A program made the translations under genes and the position numbers. This document shows positions 16,677 through 33,524 of a stretch of DNA of 64,000 nucleotides, one piece after another. Under the pieces are notes generated by a model. It was not told the origin of the DNA and did no database searches. It saw only the letters and a program-made list of their open reading frames with translations. This DNA comes from Thermoanaerobaculia bacterium (GTDB lineage: Bacteria > Acidobacteriota > Thermoanaerobaculia > Gp7-AA8): NCBI GenBank assembly GCA_017883205.1, contig JADGNZ010000011.1, forward strand, positions 62,001 through 126,000, written 5' to 3'. Numbering within the stretch: the first letter of the stretch is position 1; each line of letters opens with the position of its first letter.

Positions 16677-16856
16677 GGGGGTGGGGAGTGGGGAGTAGGG
16701 GGTGGGAGTAATCGCGGATTACGCTCGCTCTCCCCCTACCCTCCGGCTAAAGCCGGTTCACGTTGCTGTTCATCTACTCTTCCCTAAATCAGACGCCCGC
16801 CGCGCGCATCACCAGCGACTCCTCTCCCACCCCCCACTCCCCACAACCCACTCCCC
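16677..16856. repeat. Long G-rich/C-rich inverted repeat
   Basis: A purine tract built from GGGGTGGGGAGT-like units at 16677-16709 faces its pyrimidine complement at 16827-16856, enclosing about 115 bp. A second copy of this family lies at 26614-26811. The G-rich arm could also form G-quadruplexes (inference). Confidence 0.8.
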
Positions 16857-16858
16857 CA

Positions 16859-16864
16859 TATAAT
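16859..16864 (+). promoter_or_regulatory. Probable -10 box of the dehydrogenase operon
   Basis: A perfect TATAAT lies 31 bp upstream of the lpdA start codon and directly after the C-rich arm of the inverted repeat. No good -35 box is visible at the right distance. Confidence 0.5.
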
Positions 16865-16894
16865 GCCCGCCGCGCAATTCACGGGAGGTTTTCC

Positions 16895-18292
16895 TTGGCA
16901 GAACAACAGTACGACGTGGTGGTCATCGGCAGCGGTCCGGGCGGGTATGTCGCCGGAATCCGCGCCGGACAGCTCGGCATGAAGGTCGCCGTCGTCGAGA
17001 AAGATCCATTCCTCGGCGGGACATGCCTGCACCGCGGCTGCATCCCCACCAAATCGCTTCTCGAAAATGCAGACATCTGGACCAAGATCCAGAAGTCGAA
17101 AGAGTTCGGCATCACCGTCGGCGACGTCACCATCGACTGGAGCGTCGTGCAAACACGCAAGCAGGGCGTCGTCGATGCCAACGCCAAAGGCATCGAGTTC
17201 CTCTTCAAGAAGAACAAGGTCGAGCGCATCACCGGCTTCGGCAAGCTGGCCGGAAAAGGCATCGTCGAAGTCACCGGCGAAGGCGGCGCGCAACGACTCA
17301 ATACGAAGAACGTCATCCTGGCGATGGGCTCCGTTCCGAAAGACCTGCCGCACATCAAGACCGACGGCAAGCGGATCATCAACTCCGATCACATTCTCCG
17401 CATCAGCTCGATTCCGAAGTCGATGCTCGTCATCGGCGCGGGAGCGGTCGGATGCGAGTTCGCTTCGATCTTCGCCCGCTTCGGCACGAAGGTGACGATC
17501 GTCGAAGTGATGCCGCTCCTCCTGCCGATCGAAGACGAGGAGATCTCGAAGGAGTTCACGCGCGTCTTCAAAAAGAAAGGCATCGAGGTGCTCACCGACG
17601 CGAAAGTCGAATCGGCCGAAGTCAACGACGCCGGCGTGAAGGTCGTCGTCAGCTCGAAAGGCAAGCAACAGACTTTCGATGTCGAAGTCGTCCTCTCCGC
17701 CACAGGGCGGCGCGCCGTCACGGAAAACTGCGGGCTCGAAGGGACAAAAGTCGTCATCGAGCGCGGCTTCGTCCAGATCGATCCGTACATGCGCACCGGC
17801 GAAGCGAACATCTACGCCATCGGCGACATCGTTCCCACCCCCGCCCTCGCCCACTGCGCCTCGGCGGAAGGCATCGTCGCCGTCGAGAAGATCAAAGGAC
17901 TCGACGTCCGCCCGCTCAACTACGACCACGTTCCCAATGCCACCTACACAGATCCGGAAGTCGCCTCGGTAGGTCTCACGGAAAAGAAAGCGAAGGAGCG
18001 CGGCTACGACGTGAAGATCGGCAAGTTCCCGTTCACCGCGAACTCAAAAGCAAAGATCATCGGCGAAGCGAACGGCCTGGTGAAGTTCGTGTCTTCCAAA
18101 AAATATGATGAGCTCCTCGGCGTCCACATCGTCGGCCCGAAAGCGACCGAGCTGATCGCCGAAGCGTGCGCCGCCCTCGAGCTCGAAGCAACAAGCGAGT
18201 CGATCGCCAAAACCATCCACGCGCATCCCACGCTGTCCGAGGCGATGATGGAGGCGGCGGAGGACGTGGGCGGGCATTCGATACATCAGTGA
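16895..18292 (+). CDS. lpdA: Dihydrolipoamide dehydrogenase (E3)
   Basis: 465 residues from TTG 16895, chosen because GGGAGG lies just upstream and the protein then begins AEQQYDVVVIGSGPGGYVAG, the family N-terminus. The FAD motif GSGPGG, the redox disulfide GGTCLHRGCIPTKSLL, the NAD motif VIGAGAVGCEFASIFARFG and the C-terminal HAHPTLSEAMMEAAED (active-site His-Glu pair) are all present. It reoxidises dihydrolipoyl groups of the E2 core and reduces NAD. It is the first gene of the cluster E3-E1alpha-E1beta-E2. Confidence 0.96.
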   Translation: MAEQQYDVVVIGSGPGGYVAGIRAGQLGMKVAVVEKDPFLGGTCLHRGCIPTKSLLENADIWTKIQKSKEFGITVGDVTIDWSVVQTRKQGVVDANAKGIEFLFKKNKVERITGFGKLAGKGIVEVTGEGGAQRLNTKNVILAMGSVPKDLPHIKTDGKRIINSDHILRISSIPKSMLVIGAGAVGCEFASIFARFGTKVTIVEVMPLLLPIEDEEISKEFTRVFKKKGIEVLTDAKVESAEVNDAGVKVVVSSKGKQQTFDVEVVLSATGRRAVTENCGLEGTKVVIERGFVQIDPYMRTGEANIYAIGDIVPTPALAHCASAEGIVAVEKIKGLDVRPLNYDHVPNATYTDPEVASVGLTEKKAKERGYDVKIGKFPFTANSKAKIIGEANGLVKFVSSKKYDELLGVHIVGPKATELIAEACAALELEATSESIAKTIHAHPTLSEAMMEAAEDVGGHSIHQ

Positions 18293-18442: not shown

Positions 18443-19459
18443 ATGACCGAACTCTCACTCGAAACCCACGGCCTCACCCGCGAGAACCTGCTCGCAATCG
18501 ACTACTTTCTCCGTCTGACGCGTACGCTCGAGGAGCGGCTCGTCGCGCTCTTCCGTCAGGCCAAAGTCATCGGCGGGCTGTATCGCTCGCTCGGGCAGGA
18601 AGGCGAATCGGTCGCTGCGGCGTACGCGCTCGACTACAAGCAGGGTGACGTCGTGCAGCCGCTGATCCGGAACATGGGATCGATCCTCGTCGCCGGCGCC
18701 AAGCCCTCCGACATCATCAAACAGTACATGGCCAAAGCCGACTCGCCCACGCGCGGGCGCGAGCTGAACATTCATTTCGGCCATCCGGACCGCGACGGTT
18801 TCATCGGCCAGATCTCCATGCTCGGCGACATGATCCCGGTGATGGCCGGCATCACCCTCGCCGGCCGGATGCAGAAACGCAACCTCGTCGGCATGGCCTT
18901 CATCGGCGACGGCGCGTCGTCAACCGGCGCGTTTTACGAAGGGATGAACTTCGCGACGGTGCAGCGACTCCCTCTCGTCGTGATTCTGGAAAACAACGGC
19001 TACGCCTACTCGACACCGACGGCGAAACAGAGCGCGGTGAAGACGCTCGCGGACAAAGCGCACGCCTTCGGATGCGCCAGTGAAGTCGTCGACGGCAACG
19101 ACGTCCTCGCCACGTACGCTGCCGCCAAGCGCGCCGTCGATCGCGCCCGCGCGGGCGAAGGCGTCACGCTCATCGAGGCGAAGACGTTCCGCATCAAAGG
19201 CCACGCCGAGCACGACAACCAGGCCTACGTTCCGTCTGCGCTGATCGAAGAGTGGTCGGCAAAAGATCCCGTCGTGCGATTTGAGAAAGCGCTCGTCGAC
19301 GCCGGCCTGGCCGCGACGTCCGACTTCGACGCGATTCAAGCGCGCGTACGCAGCGAAGTCGATACCGCCACCGACGAAGCGGAACGCTCGCCGATGCCGC
19401 GGCCGGAAGAAGCAGCGCTCGGATTGTTCGCCGGGGACGGCTATTGGGGGAAAGGATGA
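18443..19459 (+). CDS. pdhA: 2-oxoacid (pyruvate) dehydrogenase E1 alpha subunit
   Basis: 338 residues. The thiamine diphosphate site is visible as GDGASSTGAFYEGMNFA followed by ENNGYA, and RGRELNIHFG forms the conserved phosphorylation-loop equivalent. Together with the E1 beta gene 72 bp downstream it forms an alpha2beta2 E1 that decarboxylates a 2-oxoacid and acylates lipoyl-E2. Pyruvate and branched-chain oxoacid enzymes cannot be separated confidently by eye; the complete E3-E1-E2 set next to lipoate genes favours pyruvate. The ATG at 18443 gives the expected length. Confidence 0.9.
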   Translation: MTELSLETHGLTRENLLAIDYFLRLTRTLEERLVALFRQAKVIGGLYRSLGQEGESVAAAYALDYKQGDVVQPLIRNMGSILVAGAKPSDIIKQYMAKADSPTRGRELNIHFGHPDRDGFIGQISMLGDMIPVMAGITLAGRMQKRNLVGMAFIGDGASSTGAFYEGMNFATVQRLPLVVILENNGYAYSTPTAKQSAVKTLADKAHAFGCASEVVDGNDVLATYAAAKRAVDRARAGEGVTLIEAKTFRIKGHAEHDNQAYVPSALIEEWSAKDPVVRFEKALVDAGLAATSDFDAIQARVRSEVDTATDEAERSPMPRPEEAALGLFAGDGYWGKG

Positions 19460-19531: not shown

Positions 19532-20506
19532 ATGCCCGTAACCACCTACGTCGACGCCATCCGTGAGGCGATGATCGAAGAGATGCGGCGCGATCCGCGC
19601 GTTTTTCTCATCGGCGAAGACGTCGGCTCGTACGGCGGCGCGTTCAAGACCAGCGCCGGGATGATCGACGAGTTCGGCCCTGGCCGCGTCATCGACACTC
19701 CGATCTCCGAGGTGGCCATCGTCGGCGCGGCGTCGGGAGCGGCGCTCATGGGCATGCGCCCGATCGCCGAAATGCAGTTCATCGACTTCATCACCTGCGC
19801 GTACGACATGCTCGTCAACTTCACCGCCACATCGCGCTATCGCGTGGGCAGTTCATGCCCGATCGTCGTGCGCGGTCCTGCCGGCGGCGGGACGCATGGC
19901 GGGCCGTTTCATTCGCTGAATCCCGAGGCGATGTTTATGAATAGGCCGGGGATCAAGATCGTGGCACCGGGAACTGCGTACGACGCCAAAGGCCTGCTCA
20001 AAGCGGCCATTCGCGACGACGACCCTGTGCTCTTCATCGAGCACAAGTTTCTCTATCGACGCATCAAAGAGGATTTGCCGTCCGAGGATTACGTCGTGCC
20101 GATTGGGAAGGCGAATGTCAGGCGGACGGGTAAAGACATCACCATCATCACCTGGGGAGCGATGATCTACGTTGCCGACGATGCCGCGGCCGACTTGGCA
20201 AACGACGGCGTCTCGGCGGAAGTCATCGATCTTCGCTCGATCATCCCGTTCGATGAAGAAGCGATTCTGAACTCGGTAGCGAAGACGAATCGCGTCATCA
20301 TCCTTCACGAAGCGCCTCTCACCGGCGGCGCCGGCGCCGAGTTTGCCGCACGCATCGCCGAGAAAGCGTTCGACTACCTCGACGCACCGGTCAAACGTGT
20401 GGCCGCGCTCGACGTTCCCACGCCCTATTCACCGCCCCTCGAGGCTGCAGCACTTCCGGACAAGGCCCGCGTTCTCGCCGCGGCGCGGGAGTTGCTGCGG
20501 TACTGA
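19532..20506 (+). CDS. pdhB: 2-oxoacid (pyruvate) dehydrogenase E1 beta subunit
   Basis: 324 residues. The N-terminal TYVDAIREAMIEEMRRDPRV, then LIGEDVGSYGG with its conserved Glu, IDTPISE and the region RGPAGGGTHGGPFHS match E1 beta/transketolase-like pyrimidine domains, and the C-terminal half is the transketolase C domain (VIDLRSIIPFDEEAI). It contributes half of the thiamine diphosphate site formed with E1 alpha. It lies between the E1 alpha and E2 genes on the same strand. Confidence 0.93.
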   Translation: MPVTTYVDAIREAMIEEMRRDPRVFLIGEDVGSYGGAFKTSAGMIDEFGPGRVIDTPISEVAIVGAASGAALMGMRPIAEMQFIDFITCAYDMLVNFTATSRYRVGSSCPIVVRGPAGGGTHGGPFHSLNPEAMFMNRPGIKIVAPGTAYDAKGLLKAAIRDDDPVLFIEHKFLYRRIKEDLPSEDYVVPIGKANVRRTGKDITIITWGAMIYVADDAAADLANDGVSAEVIDLRSIIPFDEEAILNSVAKTNRVIILHEAPLTGGAGAEFAARIAEKAFDYLDAPVKRVAALDVPTPYSPPLEAAALPDKARVLAAARELLRY

Positions 20507-20542: not shown

Positions 20543-21988
20543 ATGCCAATCGATGTCGTCATGCCGCAGATGGGCGAGTCAATCGCCGAAGGAACCGTCG
20601 TCAAATGGCTCAAGAAGCCGGGCGAGAAAGTCGAGCGCGATGAGCCGCTCCTCGAGATCTCGACCGACAAGGTCGACGCCGAGATCCCTGCGCCTGCCTC
20701 AGGCACCCTGACCGAGATCATCGCCCAGGAAGGCCAAACCGTCGGCGTCAACACAGTCGTCGCGCGCATCGCCGCCGAAGGCGAAGCAGCCGGCGCGAGC
20801 GCACCCGCACAAACAGCCGCAGCGCCGGTACCAGCTCAACCCACACAATCAGCTCAACCCGCAACCGCACCAGCACCAGCGTCTGCTCCGCCAGCACAAG
20901 CGCAAGCGCCAGCCCCGCCCCCGAAACCGGCCGCTCCCGCACCACAGGCGCCGCCTGCACCAAAACCAACCGAGCAACCGAGCAACGCAGCAACCGCGCA
21001 ACCGACAACCCAGCAACCCAGTGAAGAGAACATCACCTCTCTCGACGAGCGTCGGCGCACTAAATCCTCCCCGCTCGTCCGCAAGATCGCGCAGGAGAAC
21101 AACATCGACATCTCACGCCTGCAGGGTTCCGGCGTCTCCGGCCGGGTGACGAAGAACGACATCCTCGACTACCTCCAGCAGCCGGGATCCGATGCAGCGC
21201 CAGCACCCGCACTTGCCACCGGCAGCGAAGGAGTTCGACCGGCACCCGCGGAAGCCGCACCGCGCCCCGCCATGACCTTCGCGCCGGGCGAAGGCGATCG
21301 CATCGAGCCGCTCTCGATGATGCGCAAGAAGATCGCCCAGCACATGGTCCTCTCGAAGCAGACCTCGGCGCACGTGACGACCGTCTTCGAAGTCGACTTC
21401 ACCAACATCGACAAGCTCCGTCGCCGCTACAAGGACGCCTACACCGAGCGCGGCGCGAAACTCACGTTCCTGCCGTTCGTGATTCAGGCGGTGGTGCAGG
21501 GTCTTCGCGAGTTCCCCATCATCAATGCATCGATGGATGAGTCGTCGGTGACGTACCACCGCGATCTCAACATCGGAATCGCCGTTGCGTTGGAGTGGGG
21601 CCTCATCGTTCCCGTGGTCAAGAATGCCGACGAGAAGAACATCCTCGGCCTCTCCAAAGCGATCAACGACCTCGGCGAGCGCGCCCGCACGAAGAAGCTC
21701 TCGCCCGACGACGTTCAGGGCGGCACGTTCACGATCACGAATCCCGGCATTTACGGCGGCCTCTTCGGAACGCCCATCATCAATCAGCCGCAAGTCGCCA
21801 TCCTCGGCGTCGGCGGGGTGAAGAAGCGTCCAGTCGTTGTCGAGACGAAGGAAGGCGACGTCATCGCCATCCGCTCCATGTGCATCCTCGCGCTGACCTT
21901 CGATCATCGCCTCATCGACGGCGCCGTCGCCGATCAATTCATGGCGCGTGTCCGGTCGTTGATCGAAGCTGGTCAGTTCACGTTGTAG
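20543..21988 (+). CDS. pdhC: Dihydrolipoyl acyltransferase (E2)
   Basis: 481 residues in canonical E2 order. A lipoyl domain (residues 1-80) carries the modified lysine in EISTDKVDAEIPAP. A long Ala/Pro/Gln-rich mobile linker follows (about 85-165), then a peripheral subunit-binding domain SSPLVRKIAQENNIDISRL, a second linker, and the catalytic domain ending in DHRLIDGAVADQFM with the active-site His and Asp. It takes the acyl group from E1 to CoA. A good Shine-Dalgarno (CAGGAG) lies 9 nt before the ATG. Lipoate for this protein would come from lipB and lipA 2-4 kb downstream. Confidence 0.94.
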   Translation: MPIDVVMPQMGESIAEGTVVKWLKKPGEKVERDEPLLEISTDKVDAEIPAPASGTLTEIIAQEGQTVGVNTVVARIAAEGEAAGASAPAQTAAAPVPAQPTQSAQPATAPAPASAPPAQAQAPAPPPKPAAPAPQAPPAPKPTEQPSNAATAQPTTQQPSEENITSLDERRRTKSSPLVRKIAQENNIDISRLQGSGVSGRVTKNDILDYLQQPGSDAAPAPALATGSEGVRPAPAEAAPRPAMTFAPGEGDRIEPLSMMRKKIAQHMVLSKQTSAHVTTVFEVDFTNIDKLRRRYKDAYTERGAKLTFLPFVIQAVVQGLREFPIINASMDESSVTYHRDLNIGIAVALEWGLIVPVVKNADEKNILGLSKAINDLGERARTKKLSPDDVQGGTFTITNPGIYGGLFGTPIINQPQVAILGVGGVKKRPVVVETKEGDVIAIRSMCILALTFDHRLIDGAVADQFMARVRSLIEAGQFTL

Positions 21989-22009: not shown

Positions 22010-22123
22010 GTAGCGCCGTCGGCTCGACGGCTGTGCCGCCAGCGGCTCGCTGGCGACCCTGTTCGCATGCGAGGAACCGCCGCCGGGCCGGCAGCGGTAC
22101 AGCCGTCGAGCCGACGGCGCTAC
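22010..22123. repeat. Inverted repeat with hairpin-forming arms
   Basis: Exact 25-bp arms at 22010-22034 and 22099-22123. Each arm contains the smaller hairpin GCCGTCG-GCT-CGACGGC. One arm of the same sequence recurs alone at 27634-27660. It lies downstream of the E2 gene and may contribute to transcription termination. Confidence 0.9.
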
Positions 22124-22138
22124 GATCGCGCGGCGCGT

Positions 22139-24037
22139 ATGATCTCTCGCAACAACATGCGCCGCATCCTCATGTTCGCGCTCGTGTTCGCAGCCGCATT
22201 GGCGGTGCATCCGCAGAATGCCGCTCCGGTCAAAGTCTCCAGAATCGCCGGCGCTGCGTCGCGCCGGATCGAAGCGCCGATTCCCTTCCCCGCCGCTAAC
22301 GAGTCCTGGTTCCGCGCGCGCTCGAAACACTTCGTCTTCATCAGCAGCGCGGATGAGAATCGCACGCGAACGATCGCCGCGGAGCTGGAGACGCTGGCGG
22401 CCGCCCTGACGAAGGTGGACGCCACGTTCAGCACTTCGTCGGGACCGCCGACACGCGTGATCGTTTTCACGAACCCCCGCGAGAGCAGGCCGTACTTCGA
22501 CATGCTGCGGGACCGGCCCAACTCCGATGTCAGCGGCGTTTTCGTCTCGCAACGGGAAGGCGGAACGATGCTGATCAACGACGGCTCGTCCTGGCGCGGT
22601 GGCGACCGTCCTCCGCTTCACGAGCTCGTCCACGATCTTCTGGAATCGGGCGGCGCACGCATCCCGCTCTGGCTCGACGAAGGGCTGGCCGAGTACTTCA
22701 GCAATGCCACGATCCGCCGCGGCTCCGTTTCGGCGGGCGAACCGATGCGGAATCACATCGCCACGCTCCGTCAGCGGACGCGCATTCCTCCGGCAGAGCT
22801 GTTCGTCATCACGCGGGAGTCCGATACGTACAACCTTCCGCCGGGGCAGGACGTCTTCTATGCGGAAAGCTGGGCCATCGTCGATTGGCTGGTGCGTTCC
22901 GCGTCCAGCAGCGGCGCCGAGTTCTACGCATTTGTCCACGACGTCGCGAACGGAGTTCCCGTCGCCACGGCGCTGCAGATGCGCTATCACCGCTCGCTAC
23001 GCGATGTTGATTGGGCACTCACTCGCTACATAAACGCCCCGCGCGCTGGATGGAGCATCACGATTCCGGTAGCGCAGGTTGATACGACCGCGACGCTGCG
23101 AGCGATCGATCGGGCCACGGTTCTGTACGAGCTTGGACACTTCATCGCCGGAATGGACGACAAGGCCGGCGAGGCCGAACGCCACTATCGCGCTGCGCTC
23201 GAAGTCAATCCGAAGCACGCGCCGTCACTCGCCGGCCTCGCCTCCTTGCGCGTTGCCGATGCAAAGTACGCCGAGGCGATGCCGCTGTTCGAGCGCGCCA
23301 TCGCCGAGGATCCGAACGACCTCGAGGTCGCGCTCACGTATGCCGAGGCGCTGATGCAGGATCAGGCCGGGCCTGCGGCGCAGACCGAAGCCTCGGCAGC
23401 GGACGACACGCGGCGCTTCCGCAAAGCGCGCGCTCTCATCCAACCGTTTTTCAGTCGTCGCGAAGAGCCCGACTTTCCGACCGGCCGTGTCATGGCCGAC
23501 CTCGGCGTCTCCTACACCGTCGAGGACGACGTGACGCCGGGCATTGCCGCGCTCGAACAGGCGCGCACGCTCCTTCCCAATCGCGTCGATCTTCCCATTC
23601 ACCTCCTCGGCATGTACCGGCGCAGCGGTAATCGCGAAAAGGCGGACCAGCTCTTCGCGCAGCTCGAGTCAATGCCCAACCCGCAGATCGCGATCGCTGC
23701 TCGTGCGGTCGTCGCGCGCGCGGACGTGATGCGCGCGAACGCGCTCACGCACGGGAATCGTCTCGACGAAGCGGCTGCCGTCGTGCGAGAGCTGGCGGCC
23801 GACGCCGGCGATACCGATGCGCGCCGCGACTTCGAAAAGCAAGCCGCCGACCTGACCCACGCCGCAACCAGAAACCGTCAGATCGAAGCCTACGAGCAGA
23901 TCGTCGCGCAAGTGAACTCCGGCATGTTCCGCGAAGCCATCAAAGCACTCAACGCGTTCCTGCCCACCGCCACCGAGCCCGACATCGTCCACGACGCAAA
24001 GGAGCTGCAGAAGCAACTGGCGGAGTGGAAGCCGTGA
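22139..24037 (+). CDS. Secreted gluzincin-like (peptidase MA-like) protein with TPRs
   Basis: About 632 residues from ATG 22139 (an ATG at 22157 starts closer to the signal peptide MRRILMFALVFAAALAV). The central region has LHELVHDLLESGG followed by PLWLDEGLAEYFS. This is an HExxH motif with a downstream Glu as in zinc gluzincins of the peptidase MA-like/DUF1570 type. The C-terminal half is TPR (AERHYRAALEVNPKHAPSLAGLASL and further units). Predicted to be periplasmic or extracellular. The upstream part of the reading frame derives from the preceding inverted repeat and was not used as a start. Substrate unknown. Confidence 0.8.
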   Translation: MISRNNMRRILMFALVFAAALAVHPQNAAPVKVSRIAGAASRRIEAPIPFPAANESWFRARSKHFVFISSADENRTRTIAAELETLAAALTKVDATFSTSSGPPTRVIVFTNPRESRPYFDMLRDRPNSDVSGVFVSQREGGTMLINDGSSWRGGDRPPLHELVHDLLESGGARIPLWLDEGLAEYFSNATIRRGSVSAGEPMRNHIATLRQRTRIPPAELFVITRESDTYNLPPGQDVFYAESWAIVDWLVRSASSSGAEFYAFVHDVANGVPVATALQMRYHRSLRDVDWALTRYINAPRAGWSITIPVAQVDTTATLRAIDRATVLYELGHFIAGMDDKAGEAERHYRAALEVNPKHAPSLAGLASLRVADAKYAEAMPLFERAIAEDPNDLEVALTYAEALMQDQAGPAAQTEASAADDTRRFRKARALIQPFFSRREEPDFPTGRVMADLGVSYTVEDDVTPGIAALEQARTLLPNRVDLPIHLLGMYRRSGNREKADQLFAQLESMPNPQIAIAARAVVARADVMRANALTHGNRLDEAAAVVRELAADAGDTDARRDFEKQAADLTHAATRNRQIEAYEQIVAQVNSGMFREAIKALNAFLPTATEPDIVHDAKELQKQLAEWKP

Positions 24038-24197: not shown

Positions 24198-25334
24198 ATG
24201 CGCATCTGCGAATTACGGAACCTCGATCTCGTCACGTACGAGAACGGCATGCGGATGCAGCAGAAGCTGGTGGAGATGCGGCAGGAGGAGGCCATTCCGG
24301 ATCAGCTTCTCCTTCTCGAGCATCCACCTGTCATCACCCTCGGACGCGGCGGCGACGTGCGCAACCTCGTCGCTCCTCCCGCGTCGCTCGCGGCCGAGCG
24401 CGTTCGTTTCTTCGAGACCACGCGCGGCGGCGACATCACCTATCACGGACCCGGACAGCTCGTCGGTTACCCGATCGTCCACCTCGGCGAAGGGAAGCGC
24501 GACGTGCGCAAGTACGTAACGAAGCTCGAAGAGGTCCTCATCCGCACGGTCGCCGCGTACGGCATCACTGCGGAGCGGGCCGAGGGGAAGCGCGGCATCT
24601 GGGTCGGCAACGACAAGATCGCCGCCATCGGCGTGCGCATCGCGCGATGGGTGACCTCGCACGGATTCGCGCTCAACGTGACGACGAACCTCGATCACTT
24701 CCGCCTCATCACGCCGTGCGGCCTGCACGGAACGGGCGTGACCTCGATCGCGCGTCTGCTCGGACACGATGTGCCGATCGACGACGTGCGCGGCGTCGTC
24801 GCCGCGACGTTCGCGGACGTCTTCGAGCGCGAAGTCGTCCCGCACGAAGCAGGCATCCGCCTCGTCAAAGTGATGGTTCACGACGGCGAGCGCGTACTCC
24901 TTCTCCATCGCCGGCCGGAGCGTGGCAACTTCTGGCAGCCGATCACCGGCTCGATCGAAGAGGGGGAACTGCCCCTCGAAACGGCGCGCCGCGAGCTCAT
25001 CGAAGAAACCGGGAACGCGGGCGAGCCGCGCGCGCTCGATCTGCACCAATCCTTCCTGATCGATTCGCAGTTTCTGGCGGCCACGTATCCGCAGCCGATC
25101 ATCGCCTCCGAGACAGGCTTCGCGATCGAGATGAGCGCCACGGCGCCGATCCGCATCGACAAGGACGAGCACGATGACTACGGCTGGTTCACATTCGCCG
25201 AGGCATATGAAAAGATCCGCTGGACCGACGACCGCGAGGCGTTGGAGCAGTTGGAAAGAGGGTTGCTCAGTTCCAGGGTTGCTGAGTTGCTGGACGAACC
25301 ACCGCAGCAACCGAGCAACATAGCAACCAAGTAA
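24198..25334 (+). CDS. lipB: Octanoyltransferase LipB fused to a NUDIX hydrolase domain
   Basis: 378 residues from ATG 24198. The N-terminal about 215 residues are LipB, with RGGDITYHGPGQLVGYP and the acyl-binding cysteine in TPCGLHGTGVTS; it moves octanoyl groups from acyl carrier protein to lipoyl domains. The C-terminal part is a NUDIX domain with a complete box GSIEEGELPLETARRELIEETGN. NUDIX enzymes cleave nucleoside-diphosphate-X compounds, and the target here is unknown. The two domains are in one frame with no sign of sequencing error. lipA follows after 7 bp. Confidence 0.9.
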   Translation: MRICELRNLDLVTYENGMRMQQKLVEMRQEEAIPDQLLLLEHPPVITLGRGGDVRNLVAPPASLAAERVRFFETTRGGDITYHGPGQLVGYPIVHLGEGKRDVRKYVTKLEEVLIRTVAAYGITAERAEGKRGIWVGNDKIAAIGVRIARWVTSHGFALNVTTNLDHFRLITPCGLHGTGVTSIARLLGHDVPIDDVRGVVAATFADVFEREVVPHEAGIRLVKVMVHDGERVLLLHRRPERGNFWQPITGSIEEGELPLETARRELIEETGNAGEPRALDLHQSFLIDSQFLAATYPQPIIASETGFAIEMSATAPIRIDKDEHDDYGWFTFAEAYEKIRWTDDREALEQLERGLLSSRVAELLDEPPQQPSNIATK

Positions 25335-25341
25335 CCCAAAA

Positions 25342-26232
25342 ATGAGCGTCCCCCCGCCAACCCCCGCCCCCATCAACCGCCGCGCCGGGCATCGTCCCGA
25401 GTGGCTGAAGATTCGCGTGCCGGGCGATCTGGCGCAGCTTCCGGTCTCGAAGCTGATGAACGATCTGGCGCTGAACACGGTCTGCCAGGAAGCGCGCTGC
25501 CCGAACATTTTCGAGTGCTGGAGTGCCGGCACCGCCACCTTCATGATCCTCGGCGAGATCTGCACGCGGCGCTGCACGTTCTGCGCGGTCGGCAAAGGAA
25601 AGCCGCTCGGCGCCGACGCCGGTGAGCCGCGCCGCGTGGCCGAGGCGGTCGCAACGATGGGCGTGCACCACGCCGTCATCACGATGGTCAACCGCGATGA
25701 CATGCCTGACGGCGGCGCGGAGCATCTTGCGCAAACGGTCATCGCCGTTCGCGAGGAGACCGGCGCTGCGGTCGAAGTGCTGATCTCGGATCTGGAAGGT
25801 AACCGCGACGCCCTTCGCGTCGTCATCGCGTCCAATCCCGAGGTGCTGGGACACAACATCGAGACGGTGCCGCGCCTCTACTCCGCCGTTCGTCCGGTCG
25901 CGAAGTACCAACGCTCACTCGACGTGCTGCGCTGGGCATCGGAAGAGCGCGGCGTCAACATGTTGACCAAGTCGTCGCTCATGCTCGGCCTCGGCGAAAC
26001 CGAAGACGAGATCCTCTCCGTCGCCCGCGACCTGCGCGAAGCTGGTGTCGACATCTTTACGATGGGTCAATACCTGGCACCCACCGGCAACCATCACCCC
26101 GTGCGCCGCTACTACACCCCGGAGGAGTTCACGCAACTCGGAGCCGCCGCGAAGGCGCTGGGATTCCATCACGTCGAATCCGCTCCGCTCGTGCGCAGTT
26201 CATACATGGCGCACCGGGCGCTTGAGAAGTAG
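25342..26232 (+). CDS. lipA: Lipoyl synthase
   Basis: 296 residues. It is a radical SAM enzyme that inserts two sulfurs into protein-bound octanoyl chains. The auxiliary cluster ligands are in CQEARCPNIFECW and the SAM cluster in CTRRCTFCAV; the C-terminal VRSSYMAHRAL contains the conserved RSSY serine ligand. It is adjacent to lipB-NUDIX and completes the endogenous lipoylation route serving the E2 protein upstream. Confidence 0.96.
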   Translation: MSVPPPTPAPINRRAGHRPEWLKIRVPGDLAQLPVSKLMNDLALNTVCQEARCPNIFECWSAGTATFMILGEICTRRCTFCAVGKGKPLGADAGEPRRVAEAVATMGVHHAVITMVNRDDMPDGGAEHLAQTVIAVREETGAAVEVLISDLEGNRDALRVVIASNPEVLGHNIETVPRLYSAVRPVAKYQRSLDVLRWASEERGVNMLTKSSLMLGLGETEDEILSVARDLREAGVDIFTMGQYLAPTGNHHPVRRYYTPEEFTQLGAAAKALGFHHVESAPLVRSSYMAHRALEK

Positions 26233-26333: not shown

Positions 26334-26612
26334 ATGCCCCGGGTTATCTTCGTCGACGAGGGAAAGGCGGCGGAGTTTCCCGCGGGAAAGACGCTCCTCT
26401 CCTGCGCCGGCGAGATGGGAATCCGGGTCAGCAGCGTCTGCGGCGGCGACGGTGCGTGCGGGACGTGCAGGATCGAAGTCGTCGACGGTTGGGACAACCT
26501 GACACCGCCGACGCCCGATGAAACATACAAAGAGCTCGAAGCGCCGTACCGGCTGTCATGCCAATCGAAGCTGATCGGCGATGTGATTGTGAAAGTAGCG
26601 AAGATTGAGTGA
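26334..26612 (+). CDS. 2Fe-2S ferredoxin (plant/adrenodoxin-type fold)
   Basis: 92 residues. Cluster ligands are arranged as C-x5-C-x2-C in VCGGDGACGTC with the fourth in LSCQS near residue 76, typical of 2Fe-2S ferredoxins. It is a small soluble electron carrier. Its position directly after lipA, separated only by an inverted repeat, makes it a candidate electron donor for the radical SAM reaction, but this is inferred from context only. Confidence 0.9.
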   Translation: MPRVIFVDEGKAAEFPAGKTLLSCAGEMGIRVSSVCGGDGACGTCRIEVVDGWDNLTPPTPDETYKELEAPYRLSCQSKLIGDVIVKVAKIE

Positions 26613-26820: not shown

Positions 26821-27330
26821 ATGACGACGATCGAAGCAACCCCCGCGATACTCACCAGCGAGCAGCTCAACACCCTCTACCAATACACCGTCGAGGCTTA
26901 CAAGACGTTCGAGAAGCTCGCTGAAAAACTTTCCAATCCGCTCACGGCGAATATGTTCAAGCAGTTCGCGGCGGACGAGCGCGCCACGCGCGATCTCATC
27001 GAGATGAAGATTGCCGCGCGGAACGGCGCGCGGTTACGCGTGACGCTGGCCAACGATCTCGCCTTCCAGGACATCCTCGAGGGTGACCTTTCGTACCGCG
27101 AGACCACCGAGTTCCTGATCGCCCGCGAGCGGACTATGGAACGAAAGCTGGCCGAGCTCGGCCGCGGCGCCACCGTCATCGACCGCGGCTTCGTCGTCTA
27201 CCTCGGCGCATCGAAGCGCTCTCACATCGTCGAGCTCGAGCGCGAGTTGGAGCTGACCAAACTCGATCGCGATTGGTTCAAACGCGAGGATGCCGAGGCA
27301 AGGCTCGTGCGCGGACCGGCCACGGAGTAG
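26821..27330 (+). CDS. Conserved hypothetical helical protein (ferritin-like appearance)
   Basis: 169 residues, almost entirely alpha-helical, with paired segments (EQLNTLYQYTVEAYKTFEKLAEKLS and YRETTEFLIARERTMERKLAEL) that look like a four-helix bundle of rubrerythrin/ferritin type. Glu, His and Asp residues are scattered rather than in an obvious ExxH diiron pattern, so metal binding is not shown. GAGGAAAAC just before the ATG serves as ribosome-binding site. It precedes the IscA-like gene, so a link to iron metabolism is possible but unproven. Confidence 0.65.
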   Translation: MTTIEATPAILTSEQLNTLYQYTVEAYKTFEKLAEKLSNPLTANMFKQFAADERATRDLIEMKIAARNGARLRVTLANDLAFQDILEGDLSYRETTEFLIARERTMERKLAELGRGATVIDRGFVVYLGASKRSHIVELERELELTKLDRDWFKREDAEARLVRGPATE

Positions 27331-27342
27331 CGCGAGTTGGAC

Positions 27343-27630
27343 ATGAACCTCACCATCACCCGGACCGCCGCCGAGCACTTGCATCGCGACCTCGACGGCC
27401 GCTTTCTCCGCATCGCCTTCACCACCGGCTGCGGCGGCAGCGGCTACCGGCTCGCGTATGCCGACGGCCCAATCGACGGAGACCAGATCGTCGACGTCAA
27501 CGGCATCCAAGTCGCCCTCGACGACATGTCCGCCTCCCGCCTCGACGGCGCCATCATCGGATTCAACGCCGACGACGACGGCTACCTGCTGGACCACCCG
27601 GACGCCATCAGCGCGGTATGGTGCGGGTGA
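27343..27630 (+). CDS. HesB/IscA-like (A-type carrier) protein, atypical cysteines
   Basis: 95 residues beginning MNLTITRTAAEHLHRDL. The strand pattern, TTGCGGSGYRLAY and the following DxxVxVNGI-VALDD fit the HesB/IscA fold used to carry iron-sulfur clusters. The first cluster Cys is present (TGCGG), but the canonical C-terminal Cys-Gly-Cys is replaced by a single Cys in AVWCG, two residues from the end. A carrier with altered cluster binding or a degenerate paralog is therefore likely. It follows the helical protein by 12 bp. Confidence 0.7.
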   Translation: MNLTITRTAAEHLHRDLDGRFLRIAFTTGCGGSGYRLAYADGPIDGDQIVDVNGIQVALDDMSASRLDGAIIGFNADDDGYLLDHPDAISAVWCG

Positions 27631-29029: not shown

Positions 29030-29410
29030 AGCGAACTTCGGTCACGCCGACCTGCCCGGACGCCGACGAAGCCTGACGGCCACTGCGACGAGGAAGAGAC
29101 ACTCGTCGGACTGGACTGCCGCGGCTCCCGTCGCCGGTCATGGGCTCGCTGACCGCAACCGCCCGAGGCCTTGAGCGCACGGTCGCCGGGTTACCTCGGG
29201 GGATGCAGCTCGTGACATCCGCCTTCGAACTTCGAGACGATTTCAAACTAGGCAACTGTTCACTCAAACCCCAGGGGGCGAACCGTGATGAGTCCGGCTC
29301 TCTCCCTTCGCAAGACAAAGGCGATGGACAAATGCGCCGTGCCCATGAGGATCGAGTGCGTACTACCGTGCGGCGGCGGCGCCACTTCTCCGGTCAGGTA
29401 TCATTCCCGC
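29030..29410. other. Gap between tRNA and methyltransferase
   Basis: About 380 bp. No convincing gene, no integrase and no repeat of the tRNA 3' end were found here or after the accessory genes. The upstream extension of the methyltransferase frame in this gap lacks family similarity. Confidence 0.4.
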
Positions 29411-30247
29411 GTGACGCGCACTCGCTCGACTCCAATTCCGTTCCTCAAGTGGCCCGGCGGCAAACGTTGGCTAACCGAGTACATCCTGACGATTCTGCGA
29501 GGTAAAGAAATCAAGCGCTACTTCGAGCCTTTTCTCGGCGGGGCCGCACTCTATTTTGCACTTAGACCGAAGCGAGCGCTCCTTTCCGATATCAACGTCG
29601 ATCTTATTAACACTTACACGCAGGTGCGCGACTCCCACAAACGCGTGATATCCATCCTAAAACGTATTCCGGTCACGGCGGAAACGTACTACACATTACG
29701 CGATGCCAGGAGTCGCTCGCTCGTTACCCGTGCAGCACACTTCTTGTTCCTAAATCGAACCTCCTTCGCCGGCATCTATCGCCTGAACCGGAGCGGAGCC
29801 TTTAACGTTCCTTACGGCGGAGGAGACCGCAAGCCGAACATTCTCTGGGACAAGAACATACTCGGCGCTGCATCCACAGCTCTTCAGGGCACAACCCTCG
29901 CCGCCTGCGACTTCGAATCGGCTATGCTGCGTGCAAAGAAGGGCGACGTGGTTTATTGCGATCCTACATACACAGTAGCTCATGACAACAACGGATTCGT
30001 TCGATACAATGAGCGCAACTTTACCTGGTCAGACCAAGAGCGTCTCGCTTTGGCTGCTGTGAGAGCAGCATGTGCTGGAGCACTGGTGCTTGTCAGTAAC
30101 GCACACCATCGAGACATCGCAGAACTCCATCGCGGAGCCAAACTCCATATCGTCACGCGCAAGAGCTGTCTCGCTCCGGCTCCTACTTATCGCCGTTCGG
30201 TACGCGAGTATCTTTTCGTGTACCCACCGTCGCCGACGGCTCGATAA
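29411..30247 (+). CDS. D12-class (Dam-type) DNA adenine N6-methyltransferase
   Basis: 278 residues from GTG 29411, which places FLKWPGGKRWLTEYI at the N-terminus as in Dam, DpnM and phage Dam proteins. The SAM-binding motif is FEPFLGGAALYFAL, followed by LSDIN and the family segment FLFLNRTSFAGIYRLNRSG; the catalytic motif is YCDPTY, where DPPY is usual. It would methylate adenine in a short site that cannot be read from sequence (GATC is common for the class). No restriction endonuclease adjoins it. Its 3' end overlaps the convergent Ham1-kinase gene by 65 bp. Base composition looks lower in GC than the flanks. Confidence 0.85.
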   Translation: MTRTRSTPIPFLKWPGGKRWLTEYILTILRGKEIKRYFEPFLGGAALYFALRPKRALLSDINVDLINTYTQVRDSHKRVISILKRIPVTAETYYTLRDARSRSLVTRAAHFLFLNRTSFAGIYRLNRSGAFNVPYGGGDRKPNILWDKNILGAASTALQGTTLAACDFESAMLRAKKGDVVYCDPTYTVAHDNNGFVRYNERNFTWSDQERLALAAVRAACAGALVLVSNAHHRDIAELHRGAKLHIVTRKSCLAPAPTYRRSVREYLFVYPPSPTAR

Positions 30248-31814
30248 CGCGGTCCATGTAGCGGAGATACGCACGACCAGCGCTTAGAATGTCATATCTG
30301 ACTCGCATACCGACCGTTTCCAATCGCGCCACGAGACCCGGGATCCGCTTCAGAACCTTGTTCGCATTATTATATCGAATCGGATGGCCTGCCGCGCTAG
30401 TGGCGGCTTCGATCTCATAGCAGTCCAATGGCCGACCGGCAATGTCAAGTACCCTCAGCGTGTGGTAAGCCTGACTTCGATCACGACCAAGGCGTGGCTG
30501 AACATCCCATGAAACGCCGGCCACTTTTGTATCGCGAACTATGACGGCATCGACTTGGGACCAGTATTGCTCAAGCGACCCTTCGTTCTCAATTCTGATG
30601 TCGGCGAACTCGTCTGCGACCCGCAGGAGCCCAAACATCCCCTGCTCGGCATCGAGCTTTCGAAACGCCTGCAAACTGTTAATTCCGTCGAGCCGGCCTC
30701 GCGCCAGATGGCGTTCAAAGCGAGTCCTCTCCGTCGAGTCGATTAGCACAGTCCGAGCGTCGGGAATCACTTGCTTCAGAAGATCAAGTTCTTCGACCGT
30801 ACGGAACCCGCCGATCACCACGTTACGTTCGGCCTCCGACTCCAGAAGTTCCAGAACCTTACGCGCTACAACATCTGCCCCATTTGCCTTGAGAAAAATG
30901 TCAGCGACCTGGAACGGCGTCAGACTCGGCTCGACTACACCGTCCGCCATCATTCTAAGGACAGCACTGGCCTCCAGGAATCGGTACCTGTGCCTCTCAG
31001 CCGCGCGTTCTCCGAATGTGGTCTTCCCCGCACACGTGTTTCCTAGTACCACAATTACGTCCCTGTCACGTTGCCAAAGCGATGTTTGCCCACTGCCGGC
31101 CACCCTTGCCCGACGTGAATACGCAGTCGGCGAAAGGTTTAGCATCAGAGCGTATTCCTCGAGCCGCTCTACCAACGCAAGCAGTGCGCGGATCCTGAAA
31201 TCATGCTTCCACGACTCCTCAAACGACATCTCGCCGAGTCGTTTGACGGCGCCCTCAGGCACAAACCACCCGTTGAATGTGTGTGGCGTCAGCCAGGGGT
31301 ACTGAATAGATGGGGAGAACGTCGGTCGCGTACTAGCGACCACACCTTGGGTCTCACCGTGAAAGAACACTGCGCGACGAAGAGCAGGAATGTGCAGCGC
31401 GATGTCCGATTTCACTGTGGCTCGGCGCTCACGGCCATGTCGCAATAACTCTTGATCCAACACATCGAAGCTCGTTCCCGCGAACCACTCCTTTACAGAG
31501 AGGCCCGGGAAGTCATCGGTGCCACTCAAGGCTTCGATTCTCAAGGAGGTGTCTTCGACAAAAAAAATCGACGCCCGTCCAACGCGGGCTTGGATCTCCT
31601 CCAAGGCTCGACCGAGCAGCCGCTCCTTGCCCAGAGAGTAGTCTTCGGCGTATGGCTCGGTGTTCGATTTGAAATGCTGGAGCACAAGCCCGACACGCTC
31701 GAAGACGGCTCGCGCCTGAAGGTACTTGTCGACGTTCGAGGTGTGAAATAGCACATCGATCGTGCGTTCGCCGAGCAAGAAGACTTCGCGGAGGTATGGG
31801 CGACCGTCAGTCAT
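30183..31814 (-). CDS. Ham1/RdgB-like NTP pyrophosphatase fused to P-loop kinase and C-terminal DNA-binding-like domain
   Basis: 543 residues. Residues about 18-225 fit the Ham1/ITPase family: SNVDK (26-30), FVEDTSLRIEAL (85-96, matching the family's DDSGLxVDAL), FPGLSV, GWFVPEG and a C-terminal HDFRIRALLAL. Residues about 252-410 form a nucleotide-kinase-like P-loop domain with GNTCAGKTT (258-266) and ERTRFERHLARGR, a possible lid. The last 120 residues (YHTLRVLDIAGRPLDCYEIEAAT...) look like a winged helix. Ham1 enzymes remove non-canonical purine NTPs, and the fused kinase suggests work on an unusual nucleotide. It is the last gene of a coupled operon with the two genes upstream. The combination is unfamiliar to me. 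Confidence 0.8.
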   Translation of the reverse strand: MTDGRPYLREVFLLGERTIDVLFHTSNVDKYLQARAVFERVGLVLQHFKSNTEPYAEDYSLGKERLLGRALEEIQARVGRASIFFVEDTSLRIEALSGTDDFPGLSVKEWFAGTSFDVLDQELLRHGRERRATVKSDIALHIPALRRAVFFHGETQGVVASTRPTFSPSIQYPWLTPHTFNGWFVPEGAVKRLGEMSFEESWKHDFRIRALLALVERLEEYALMLNLSPTAYSRRARVAGSGQTSLWQRDRDVIVVLGNTCAGKTTFGERAAERHRYRFLEASAVLRMMADGVVEPSLTPFQVADIFLKANGADVVARKVLELLESEAERNVVIGGFRTVEELDLLKQVIPDARTVLIDSTERTRFERHLARGRLDGINSLQAFRKLDAEQGMFGLLRVADEFADIRIENEGSLEQYWSQVDAVIVRDTKVAGVSWDVQPRLGRDRSQAYHTLRVLDIAGRPLDCYEIEAATSAAGHPIRYNNANKVLKRIPGLVARLETVGMRVRYDILSAGRAYLRYMDRVIEPSATVGTRKDTRVPNGDK

Positions 31815-32769
31815 CTAAAACCTCGAAGCCCGAGTTTCGCCCCGAGAAGGTGCCTAGCGCAGGGCTACCATTCTGCGCCGCTAAGGACGTTGCAAGATCA
31901 CGCTCCGCATCCGTACGCGTGACCACGTACAGCAGAGGACCCATGCTACTCATTCCTGCCGCAAGCGAGTTCGCTTGCAGTGAGCGGAGAAGTTCACGAA
32001 CACGAGCGCTTTGCCCCTCAAGCTCCTTACGCTTAAACCCTACGGTGTGAAGGTCAACTAGCGATCGAGTTAGCAGAGGAAGATCACATGTGGCAACGGC
32101 AGCCGCGACGCCATGGTACAGCAGTCCAATCGTGGCCAGAGCGTCGCGTTTCAGAATGGGTGCGTGAAGTCTGAAAAACTCGATTTCGTCCGAACCCGAG
32201 TAGTTTCGTCCGAGCGGAACGATTAGGGTAAATTTCCACTCCAGAGGAATGGGGTGTCTCGCTATCACCGGCGGCGGTGTATGTCCGTCAGAGGCGGACG
32301 AAGGAAGAAAAGGGGGCGAGCCGACTCCTTCTGCATGTCCGCCGTCGGTCAGGAAACCACCGTCGAAGAACGTGTTGACGCCAATTCCTGACGCGCCTCC
32401 CCGGCCGCTGATTCTCTGCAACTCCACACGTCGTGCGCTGCGCGCCTTGATCCGGTAAAGGCCGGTGGCTACAGCGAGAAGTAGCGCCGTCTTTGAGCCA
32501 AGGCCGCTGTGCTGGGGTGGCATCTTCTCGACCGTGATCTGGACATCGTCCGCCAACGGCCGCATACGTTCGCAGAGACTCCGCAACTGAGTGACAGTCA
32601 CGCTCTCTATCCCTTCCGGAAGAAGTAGACCATGGCCGTTCCCATGCCGAAAATCGACAATGGTCTGAGGCGCTTCGATAGCGAAGCCAGCACCACCGAA
32701 GCGCCGTGACGTGGCGCCCGCGAGATCCGCGAGTGCCACGTGGATGCGTGGGAAGGAGATGATCTTCAT
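31807..32769 (-). CDS. GHMP-kinase fold protein of the beta-RFAP synthase type
   Basis: 320 residues beginning MKIISFPRIHVALADLAG, the N-terminal pattern of beta-ribofuranosylaminobenzene 5'-phosphate synthases. The GHMP ATP-loop equivalent is PQHSGLGSKTALLLA (85-99), and SGRGGASGIGVNTFFDGG followed by DGGH (121-145) is the signature of that family. Beta-RFAP synthase couples PRPP with p-hydroxy- or p-aminobenzoate in methanopterin synthesis. No other methanopterin gene is seen here, so the enzyme probably makes a different C-glycoside-like or phosphoribosyl product (inference). It overlaps the upstream gene by 4 bp and the downstream gene by 8 bp. Confidence 0.8.
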   Translation of the reverse strand: MKIISFPRIHVALADLAGATSRRFGGAGFAIEAPQTIVDFRHGNGHGLLLPEGIESVTVTQLRSLCERMRPLADDVQITVEKMPPQHSGLGSKTALLLAVATGLYRIKARSARRVELQRISGRGGASGIGVNTFFDGGFLTDGGHAEGVGSPPFLPSSASDGHTPPPVIARHPIPLEWKFTLIVPLGRNYSGSDEIEFFRLHAPILKRDALATIGLLYHGVAAAVATCDLPLLTRSLVDLHTVGFKRKELEGQSARVRELLRSLQANSLAAGMSSMGPLLYVVTRTDAERDLATSLAAQNGSPALGTFSGRNSGFEVLDD

Positions 32770-33524
32770 TCACCCGCACGCAGGGCCGTCACACTGAGTG
32801 TTTCGTCGGACCAAATCGCGTCGAACTGGCCGACGATCCGGTCGAATAGGATTCCGCCGCGTCGAAAAAGAATCGTCGGAGAGTTTCGACTGGGCTGTTT
32901 CAAGAGGTAAGGGCCGAAGAACACTTCGTCATCAATGCGGAAGATGTTCATGGTTGGTAGGCATCGATACAATCGAACCTCGAAGGGGTGACGTCCCGAA
33001 GAATTCATGATAGGAGTCACAGCTCGCACAAAATCAAGAACTTCCTGTGTGATTGTGCCAACGGTCTGCCTCTCCTCGACGTCACGTTGCGACGCGTAGG
33101 GCGCGGCGTGCGGAAAGTGAGGATCGAGCAGGAGTATTCGGACATGAGCCTTCTCTCGCCATCTCGCAAAGTGATCGAAGTAATCTTCGCGAAATGCGCG
33201 AAGGCCGAAGCCCATAACGTCGATGTGTTCGCGCGCGTCCGTTAGGCGGCTGTCGTACTCCTCACGAATCCGCACCGATCGTGCGGCGAAGATATTGGAC
33301 AGGCCAAACTCGCTCAGAATACGCAGGCGAGCACTGACGTCTCTCGACAGAAAGATGTATAGGAACACCGTCCAGCCCGTGATCCCGGCCGCGACAAGGG
33401 AAGTTCCGACGCTAATCCACGTCGTGCTCTCGAGCCGAATTAGGAAGACTCCGACGCAAAACACGATCGCGTGCGTGAGCAGGTAAACCCAGTGCGTTGG
33501 ATCAATGCGAAAACGATGTTTCAT
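32766..33524 (-). CDS. Membrane-anchored PLD-superfamily-like protein
   Basis: 252 residues. Two adjacent membrane helices (WVYLLTHAIVFCVGVFLIRL and WISVGTSLVAAGITGWTVFL) are followed by a cytoplasmic domain: HIDVMGFGLRAFREDYFDHF, VRILLLDPHFPHA and ... NIFRIDDEVFFGPYLL. That strand order resembles phospholipase-D-fold domains of the DUF5919-like group, but the catalytic HxK motif is absent, so it may sense or bind rather than cleave. It is the first gene of the three-gene operon, with ATGA overlap into the GHMP gene. Confidence 0.7.
   Translation of the reverse strand: MKHRFRIDPTHWVYLLTHAIVFCVGVFLIRLESTTWISVGTSLVAAGITGWTVFLYIFLSRDVSARLRILSEFGLSNIFAARSVRIREEYDSRLTDAREHIDVMGFGLRAFREDYFDHFARWREKAHVRILLLDPHFPHAAPYASQRDVEERQTVGTITQEVLDFVRAVTPIMNSSGRHPFEVRLYRCLPTMNIFRIDDEVFFGPYLLKQPSRNSPTILFRRGGILFDRIVGQFDAIWSDETLSVTALRAGE

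Follow-up and report, generated by a model that had tools for sequence, protein, structure and literature searches.

The window, by which we mean the whole stretch of 64,000 nucleotides analysed here, belongs to a soil acidobacterium and carries a lipoate/PDH operon in which a gene for a LipB-Nudix fusion protein directly precedes lipA. The features of this region are as follows:

16763..18292, + strand: E3 dihydrolipoamide dehydrogenase, GGTCLHRGCIPTK motif in the translation (open-frame bounds, start uncertain)
18443..19459, + strand: E1 alpha (PF00676, E 1.5e-67)
19532..20506, + strand: E1 beta (PF02779/PF02780)
20543..21988, + strand: E2 acyltransferase with one lipoyl domain (PF00198, E 1.3e-83; PF00364; PF02817)
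22067..24037, + strand: DUF1570 (HELVH) and TPR protein in the E2-lipB interval (PF07607, TPR families)
24198-25334, + strand: LipB-Nudix fusion gene, a single open frame of 378 aa, ATG at 24198, TAA at 25332-25334
24198..24848, + strand: LipB (octanoyl-[ACP]:protein N-octanoyltransferase) domain, aa 1-217 (PF21948, TIGR00214, fold match 2qhs)
24849..25334, + strand: NudB-like Nudix hydrolase domain, aa 218-378, including the stop codon (PF00293, NF006961, fold matches 3son and 2o5w)
24948..25016, + strand: Nudix box GSIEEGELPLETARRELIEETGN, aa 251-273 (read from the sequence)
25342..26232, + strand: lipA, lipoyl synthase (TIGR00510, 336.7 bits against a cut-off of 310.25)
26334..26612, + strand: 2Fe-2S ferredoxin (PF00111, E 1.5e-12)
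26821..27330, + strand: DUF2383-like protein (PF09537, 25.9 bits, below the cut-off of 30.8), syntenic with lipA in the family
27337..27630, + strand: A-type Fe-S carrier-like protein (PF01521, E 3.7e-9), syntenic with lipA in the family

An earlier note on this DNA had named E3, E1, E2, lipA and a ferredoxin as the neighbours, and these assignments were borne out by Pfam and TIGR00510 and, for E3, by the GGTCLHRGCIPTK motif, which we take to be a sign of dihydrolipoamide dehydrogenase; the DUF1570/TPR gene and the two genes past the ferredoxin were absent from that note. E3 homologues head the cluster in several relatives, and the E2 acyltransferase is the likely client of LipB. Some relatives likewise have the DUF1570/TPR protein in the E2-lipB interval; in others it was not found. 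The start of lipA lies 7 bases past the fusion gene, and hemB, named from sequence, is convergent beyond the Fe-S carrier-like gene. The run of fusion, lipA, ferredoxin, DUF2383-like and Fe-S carrier-like genes recurs at 8 of 9 loci in the host's order, the exception (G018) belonging to another family, and at all 16 of the nearest named loci (L065-L080), the two sets sharing some genomes. Outside the order, the fusion adjoins PDH genes in families f80, f84 and f67 and is found elsewhere in f35 and f43. The ferredoxin, DUF2383-like and Fe-S carrier-like proteins may help to rebuild the Fe-S cluster consumed by lipoyl synthase; the carrier-like protein has the first cysteine region (GCGGSGY) and ends in AVWCG, the usual tail of A-type carriers being of the CGCG type.

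Two further regions of the window deserve mention. At 29285-33524, a D12 DNA adenine methyltransferase adjoins a Ham1-like pyrophosphatase of 543 aa, whose frame also gives a weak P-loop kinase-like match; a GHMP-kinase-like protein and one of 252 aa that matches nothing in Pfam accompany them. PADLOC returned only the methyltransferase among these four proteins, which may make up a small island with a role in nucleotide metabolism or base modification. At 11318-16669 lies a 1783-aa protein that, judged from its sequence, has a signal-like N-terminus and a large number of similar repeats, each about 90 residues long, and whose only Pfam match is GH85_C.

The earlier note had also described intact LipB motifs followed in frame by a NUDIX box, and the single 378-aa frame, the Pfam matches and TIGR00214 agree with this. 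In the N-terminal half, LplA-B_cat (PF21948) covers aa 14-205 (E 1.5e-50, above cut-off) and the LipB equivalog model TIGR00214 is passed with 168.1 against 83.55 bits; in the C-terminal half, NUDIX (PF00293) covers aa 224-350 (E 4.4e-14, 53.1 against 21.1 bits). Lys140 and Cys174, presumably the catalytic residues of LipB, occur in 43/43 fused and 27/27 unfused LipB rows of the tree set. The Nudix box (consensus GX5EX7REUXEEXGU) has all fixed residues, with N at the last, usually hydrophobic, position, and E257, R265, E266, E269 and E270 are invariant across 41 aligned sequences; the final 20 or so residues of the half align without conservation. An identity of the N-terminal half as LplA, the adenylating lipoate-protein ligase, was rejected, the NCBIfam matches of this half being LipB models and LipB structures scoring Z 31-34, compared with about 19-24 for entries of LplA type. 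On the evidence of profiles and model, the protein thus described is a complete LipB followed by a complete NudB-like Nudix domain.

An AlphaFold2 model built from 41 aligned fusions (pLDDT 94.0, pTM 0.91) has hardly any linker between the halves, which are predicted with confidence to pack as one body. Residues 2-214 match LipB 2qhs (Z 33.5, rmsd 1.5 over 209 residues), and residues 217-359 match Nudix enzymes, with 3son at Z 19.5, NudB (2o5w) at 18.9 and an Ap6A hydrolase at 18.2. Among the matches listed by Foldseek, NudB chains lead the Nudix entries. As Ap6A/Ap4A hydrolases (Z 18.2-17.9) come nearly level with 3son and NudB, the modelled fold by itself cannot tell NudB from diadenosine-polyphosphate (ApnA) hydrolases.

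The gene is present in 19/19 genomes of the host's order, with both halves matched in 18/19; the remaining copy (G003) ends at a contig end, and one of the 18 (G007, locus L012) loses register with the other fusions over roughly its final 25 residues. Across the phylum, 278 of 396 genomes match, and both halves are covered in at least 54, partial matches such as G375 and G164 being left out of this count; the remaining rows are, among the matches listed, mostly the LipB half alone. We also scanned genome contigs with two Nudix-domain patterns, G[NG][FN]WQP[IV]T and IRW[TS]DDR[ED]. Of 79 named loci, 53 have LipB in frame, 25 do not and one has no frame; the nearest are labelled Acidobacteriota, Thermoanaerobaculia or 'gp7', and those fused to LipB include Myxococcota (Anaeromyxobacter, Archangium, Myxococcaceae) and one Gemmatimonadota genome. 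At the 25 loci without in-frame LipB, no LipB match was found in the fetched stretch. Because the fusion is matched in 18/19 genomes of the order, in at least 54/396 of the phylum and in Myxococcota and Gemmatimonadota, it is not an artefact of assembly. In comparisons with four relatives in the family, dN/dS is 0.19-0.30 for the Nudix half and 0.13-0.17 for LipB (simple counting, with synonymous sites partly saturated), and the Nudix half evolves under purifying selection.

In the LipB tree (70 rows, L019 and L059 excluded), fused and unfused states change 4 times (3-4 in bootstrap trees) compared with 21.8 times with shuffled labels, and the starred branches force 2 changes. The Nudix tree (77 rows, including 43 LipB-fused domains, rooted on L022 and L024, with L026 and L027 dropped for want of a box match) has 3 changes for the LipB-fused domains, one of them at L138, which counts as standing alone and is cut at a contig end; its basal forks leave undecided whether the LipB-fused domains form a single clade. 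The trees would fit one old fusion followed by losses, with room left for several independent gains.

Several lines of evidence point to a NudB/FolQ-type Nudix half, namely its profile, its pocket residues, its FolP-fused relatives and the weakness of the next NF006961 match in the host. Taken alone, the half matches NF006961 (7,8-dihydroneopterin triphosphate (DHNTP) diphosphatase) best among NCBIfam Nudix models, with 72.7 bits against 21.8 for the next model, and the only other match to NF006961 in the host genome reaches 23.4 bits. Built on 35 Nudix rows (31 LipB-fused, 2 FolP-fused, 2 standalone), a profile finds, among PDB sequences, NudB (8e-24) ahead of 3son (2.8e-17) and human Ap4A hydrolase (5.7e-15). 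With the 31 LipB-fused rows only, the profile scores four FolP-fused domains at 110-130 bits, three Acidobacteriota NudBs at 115-119 and E. coli NudB at 81, compared with 20-33 for MutT, NudC, RppH, NudJ and NudF and 37 and 15 for two other Nudix domains of the host. In E. coli NudB, the residues R29, F35, Q37, T40, E56, E60, E100 and E117 are described, in the available part of a docking and crystal study, as binding metal or docked substrate (PMC5526541). All eight are identical in the window domain (where R29, Q37, T40 and E100 correspond to R238, Q247, T250 and E305), in the three Acidobacteriota NudBs and in three of the four FolP-fused domains; none of MutT, NudC, RppH, NudJ, NudF and the two other host domains shares the set. 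Among 38 fusions picked by whole-protein similarity (18 of the order and 20 of the 47 other fused genomes), E56, E60, R29 and E100 are kept in all, T40 and E117 in 37, Q37 in 34 and F35 in 26, the position of F35 being W in 9 and N in 3; 24 have the entire set, and within the 20 from other families S replaces Q37 in 4 and W replaces F35 in 9. Conservation of Q37 and T40 in L065-L143 is partly selected, since the scan patterns contain these positions; the counts given here rest on the 38 fusions.

Other observations weigh against NudB function. NF006961 is matched below its cut-off (72.7 against 103 bits), and we therefore call the protein NudB-like and not a NudB equivalog. Lys7 and S135 of NudB are kept in 0/38 fusions (I and W in the window), in ends that align less surely, and F84, L87 and Y91 have no conservation in the 38, also in less surely aligned regions. 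In the docking model, as far as the available text goes, Lys7 is predicted to contact phosphate and S135 the pterin (PMC5526541). Two genomes (G098 and G087) hold both a LipB-Nudix and a Nudix-FolP fusion, and the LipB-borne copy would be redundant there because of the FolP-borne one. The location of the fusion gene among genes for PDH and lipoate also counts against a folate role.

In the Nudix-FolP proteins, dihydropteroate synthase (FolP) is preceded in the same chain by a related Nudix domain:

L088, 5881-7245, + strand: Nudix-FolP fusion (PF00809, E 4.8e-78; TIGR01496 above cut-off)
L099, 915-2354, + strand: Nudix-FolP fusion (PF00809, E 1.8e-79; TIGR01496 above cut-off)

NF006961 reaches 99 bits in L088 and 95 in L099, and L172 and L173 likewise read as Nudix-FolP from their sequences. 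L088 comes from a Blastocatellia genome and shares its contig with the LipB fusion, at a distance of about 22 kb; the contig of L099 is named Acidobacteria, its record Actinomycetota. In the Nudix tree, the FolP-fused domains form one set with NudB and the standalone relatives (90/93, not starred). Two separate Nudix-FolP fusion events are possible, L173 grouping with NudB (not starred). Related Nudix domains were also seen in an archaeal MAG (L128, 5959-7599, + strand), fused to an apparent class-III aminotransferase (argD-like, from sequence) beside an amino-acid kinase (PF00696), and in a Patescibacteria MAG (L132, 4937-5758, + strand), fused to a nucleoside diphosphate kinase domain. Among viral contigs no relative was confirmed, the PHROGs matches being generic only.

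The standalone relatives have cyclophilin, HU, response regulator, CBS/CNNM, CheB, amino-acid kinase, Fic and nucleotidyltransferase genes as neighbours; no folate gene was found among the neighbours scanned, which weakens a folate label for all of these relatives. In all 54 fused genomes the fusion itself matches NF006961 above 45 bits, G098 and G087 having a second such match, and five unfused genomes (G048, G355, G279, G241 and G049) have one elsewhere, cases too few to judge complementarity between fused and other NudB-like domains. In G048 (contig 12) and G279 (contig 40), both of family f23, a distance of about 9-11 kb separates the standalone NudB from gcvH. Co-occurrence of folate and GcvH genes was rejected as folate evidence: between 31 of the 54 fused genomes and 31 hand-picked unfused ones, HPPK (30/31 in each) and GcvH (31/31 in each) are equally frequent, GTP cyclohydrolase I being found in 30/31 of the fused genomes (29 above cut-off). 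Proximity of folK was set aside as well; HPPK shares a contig with the fusion in G012, G010, G005 and G009, about 13-22 kb away, and is on a different contig in the window's genome. No E2 match was found in the fused genomes G356 and G332, where GcvH is thus the only one found of the two lipoyl acceptors looked for, an observation that is no more than suggestive. Two small relatives with genomes of 1.2 Mb, G207 and G340, have retained GTP cyclohydrolase I, GcvH and E2 alongside the LipB-Nudix fusion; of the two, only G340 gave a match to HPPK.

Other activities of the Nudix half have to be weighed against a role in folate synthesis. It could be a house-cleaning hydrolase of diadenosine polyphosphates or (oxidised) dNTPs that rides on LipB, and Ap4A hydrolases do follow directly after NudB and 3son in the profile search, as they do closely by fold; NudB itself was first described as a dATP enzyme. 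The human Ap4A hydrolase, however, aligns without counterparts of Q37..T40 and E100, and the Nudix-FolP fusions point to folate, so that we regard this reading as unlikely, if still a serious contender. In a tree of the Nudix clan, E. coli NudB falls among ApnA hydrolases, yet it was not assayed on them according to the available part of that work, which also calls the characterisation of NudB possibly incomplete (PMC5389931). A mainly regulatory or structural Nudix half, which would bind a nucleotide or pterin and tune LipB with catalysis secondary, would suit the fixed arrangement of the confidently modelled protein and the occurrence of LipB without Nudix in many Acidobacteriota genomes. 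A mere sensor would not need the catalytic residues, however, and the box glutamates are kept in 38/38 fusions and E117 in 37/38, which makes this account very unlikely. The same conservation, together with the dN/dS values, supports the earlier note in taking the Nudix part to be intact.

Its suggestion that this part hydrolyses lipoyl-AMP or a CoA derivative arising from lipoylation has in its favour only the location in a lipoate/PDH operon, and we find it barely credible. LipB transfers the octanoyl group from octanoyl-ACP and involves neither adenylation nor a nucleotide by-product; because the N-terminal half is LipB and not LplA, no lipoyl-AMP would be made, and lipoyl-AMP has no diphosphate bond to be cleaved. 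Outside LipB, moreover, some of the relatives sit on FolP, and the NCBIfam matches of the fusion up to E 0.1 include no CoA-hydrolase family, which leaves both proposed substrates unsupported. A functionally meaningless fusion through passive read-through of neighbouring genes would be compatible with fused and unfused forms in one phylum and the 4 state changes in the LipB tree. It is nonetheless highly improbable in view of the retention of both halves in nearly the whole order and their presence in three phyla, the constraint on the Nudix half, and the 25 loci where a related Nudix domain has no LipB in frame or elsewhere in the fetched stretch.

We return to the folate reading and consider it about an even call, on sequence and model evidence, that the fusion is a bifunctional LipB-FolQ-like cofactor-synthesis protein whose Nudix half acts on DHNTP. 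In this scheme, (i) the N-terminal half would take octanoyl groups from octanoyl-ACP and attach them to GcvH and to the E2 lipoyl domain; (ii) LipA would then convert the octanoyl group on these proteins; (iii) the C-terminal half, less certainly, would act as a metal-dependent pyrophosphohydrolase that converts 7,8-dihydroneopterin triphosphate to the monophosphate and PPi; and (iv) this reaction would fill the FolQ position in the folate pathway. The fusion may be old and kept or lost as a unit, which would tie the lipoate step to the folate step; we speculate that glycine cleavage, which needs both cofactors, is a possible reason for such coupling. A bolder version, which we hold to be possible but rather doubtful, is that the C-terminal half of LipB is the missing FolQ of whole Acidobacteriota and Myxococcota lineages, one ancient fusion coupling and perhaps balancing lipoate and folate synthesis. 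If the proposal is true, the two pathways are physically linked, and the NudB-like domain on LipB is a concrete folate-enzyme candidate in a place where searches for standalone Nudix proteins would miss it; such proteins may be annotated plainly as LipB and their second half overlooked. In the open-licence literature (titles and abstract starts) we found no earlier description of a LipB-Nudix fusion, which domain-architecture databases may list, and no paper evidently about a Nudix-dihydropteroate synthase fusion.

Compared with known systems, the N-terminal half shares its fold with LipB 2qhs and the M. tuberculosis enzyme 1w66 (Z 33.5 and 31.1, identity 44% and 43%), together with the Lys and Cys residues and the neighbouring lipA, but these chains are single-domain proteins of 210 and 218 residues, to which the window protein adds about 160 residues of Nudix. 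By fold, the Nudix half comes closest to the hypothetical or putative Listeria Nudix protein 3son, which ranks second by profile; 3son has A at the T40 position and stands alone, in contrast to the LipB-fused domain. NudB (2o1c, 2o5w, 5u7e) is the best profile match, and the window domain keeps its metal ligands, R29, F35, Q37, T40 and E100, although the two are only 28-30% identical and the window domain lies below the NF006961 cut-off, lacks K7 and S135 and is fused to LipB. E. coli NudB has, since 2007, been assigned to the DHNTP pyrophosphohydrolase step of folate synthesis. FolQ of Lactococcus lactis is a Nudix enzyme like the half described here, with demonstrated DHNTP pyrophosphatase activity, but is encoded in a folate gene cluster; the available text of this 2007 source describes the folate step after GTP cyclohydrolase as having no identified gene in most genomes (PMC1971073). 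The Nudix-FolP fusions carry the same Nudix subfamily as the window, the L088 domain being 42% identical to it, and the one of the four that departs from the eight-residue set, L173, carries S in place of T40 and Q in place of E100. Their Nudix domain is N-terminal and its partner dihydropteroate synthase, whereas in the window protein the Nudix domain is C-terminal and its partner is LipB.
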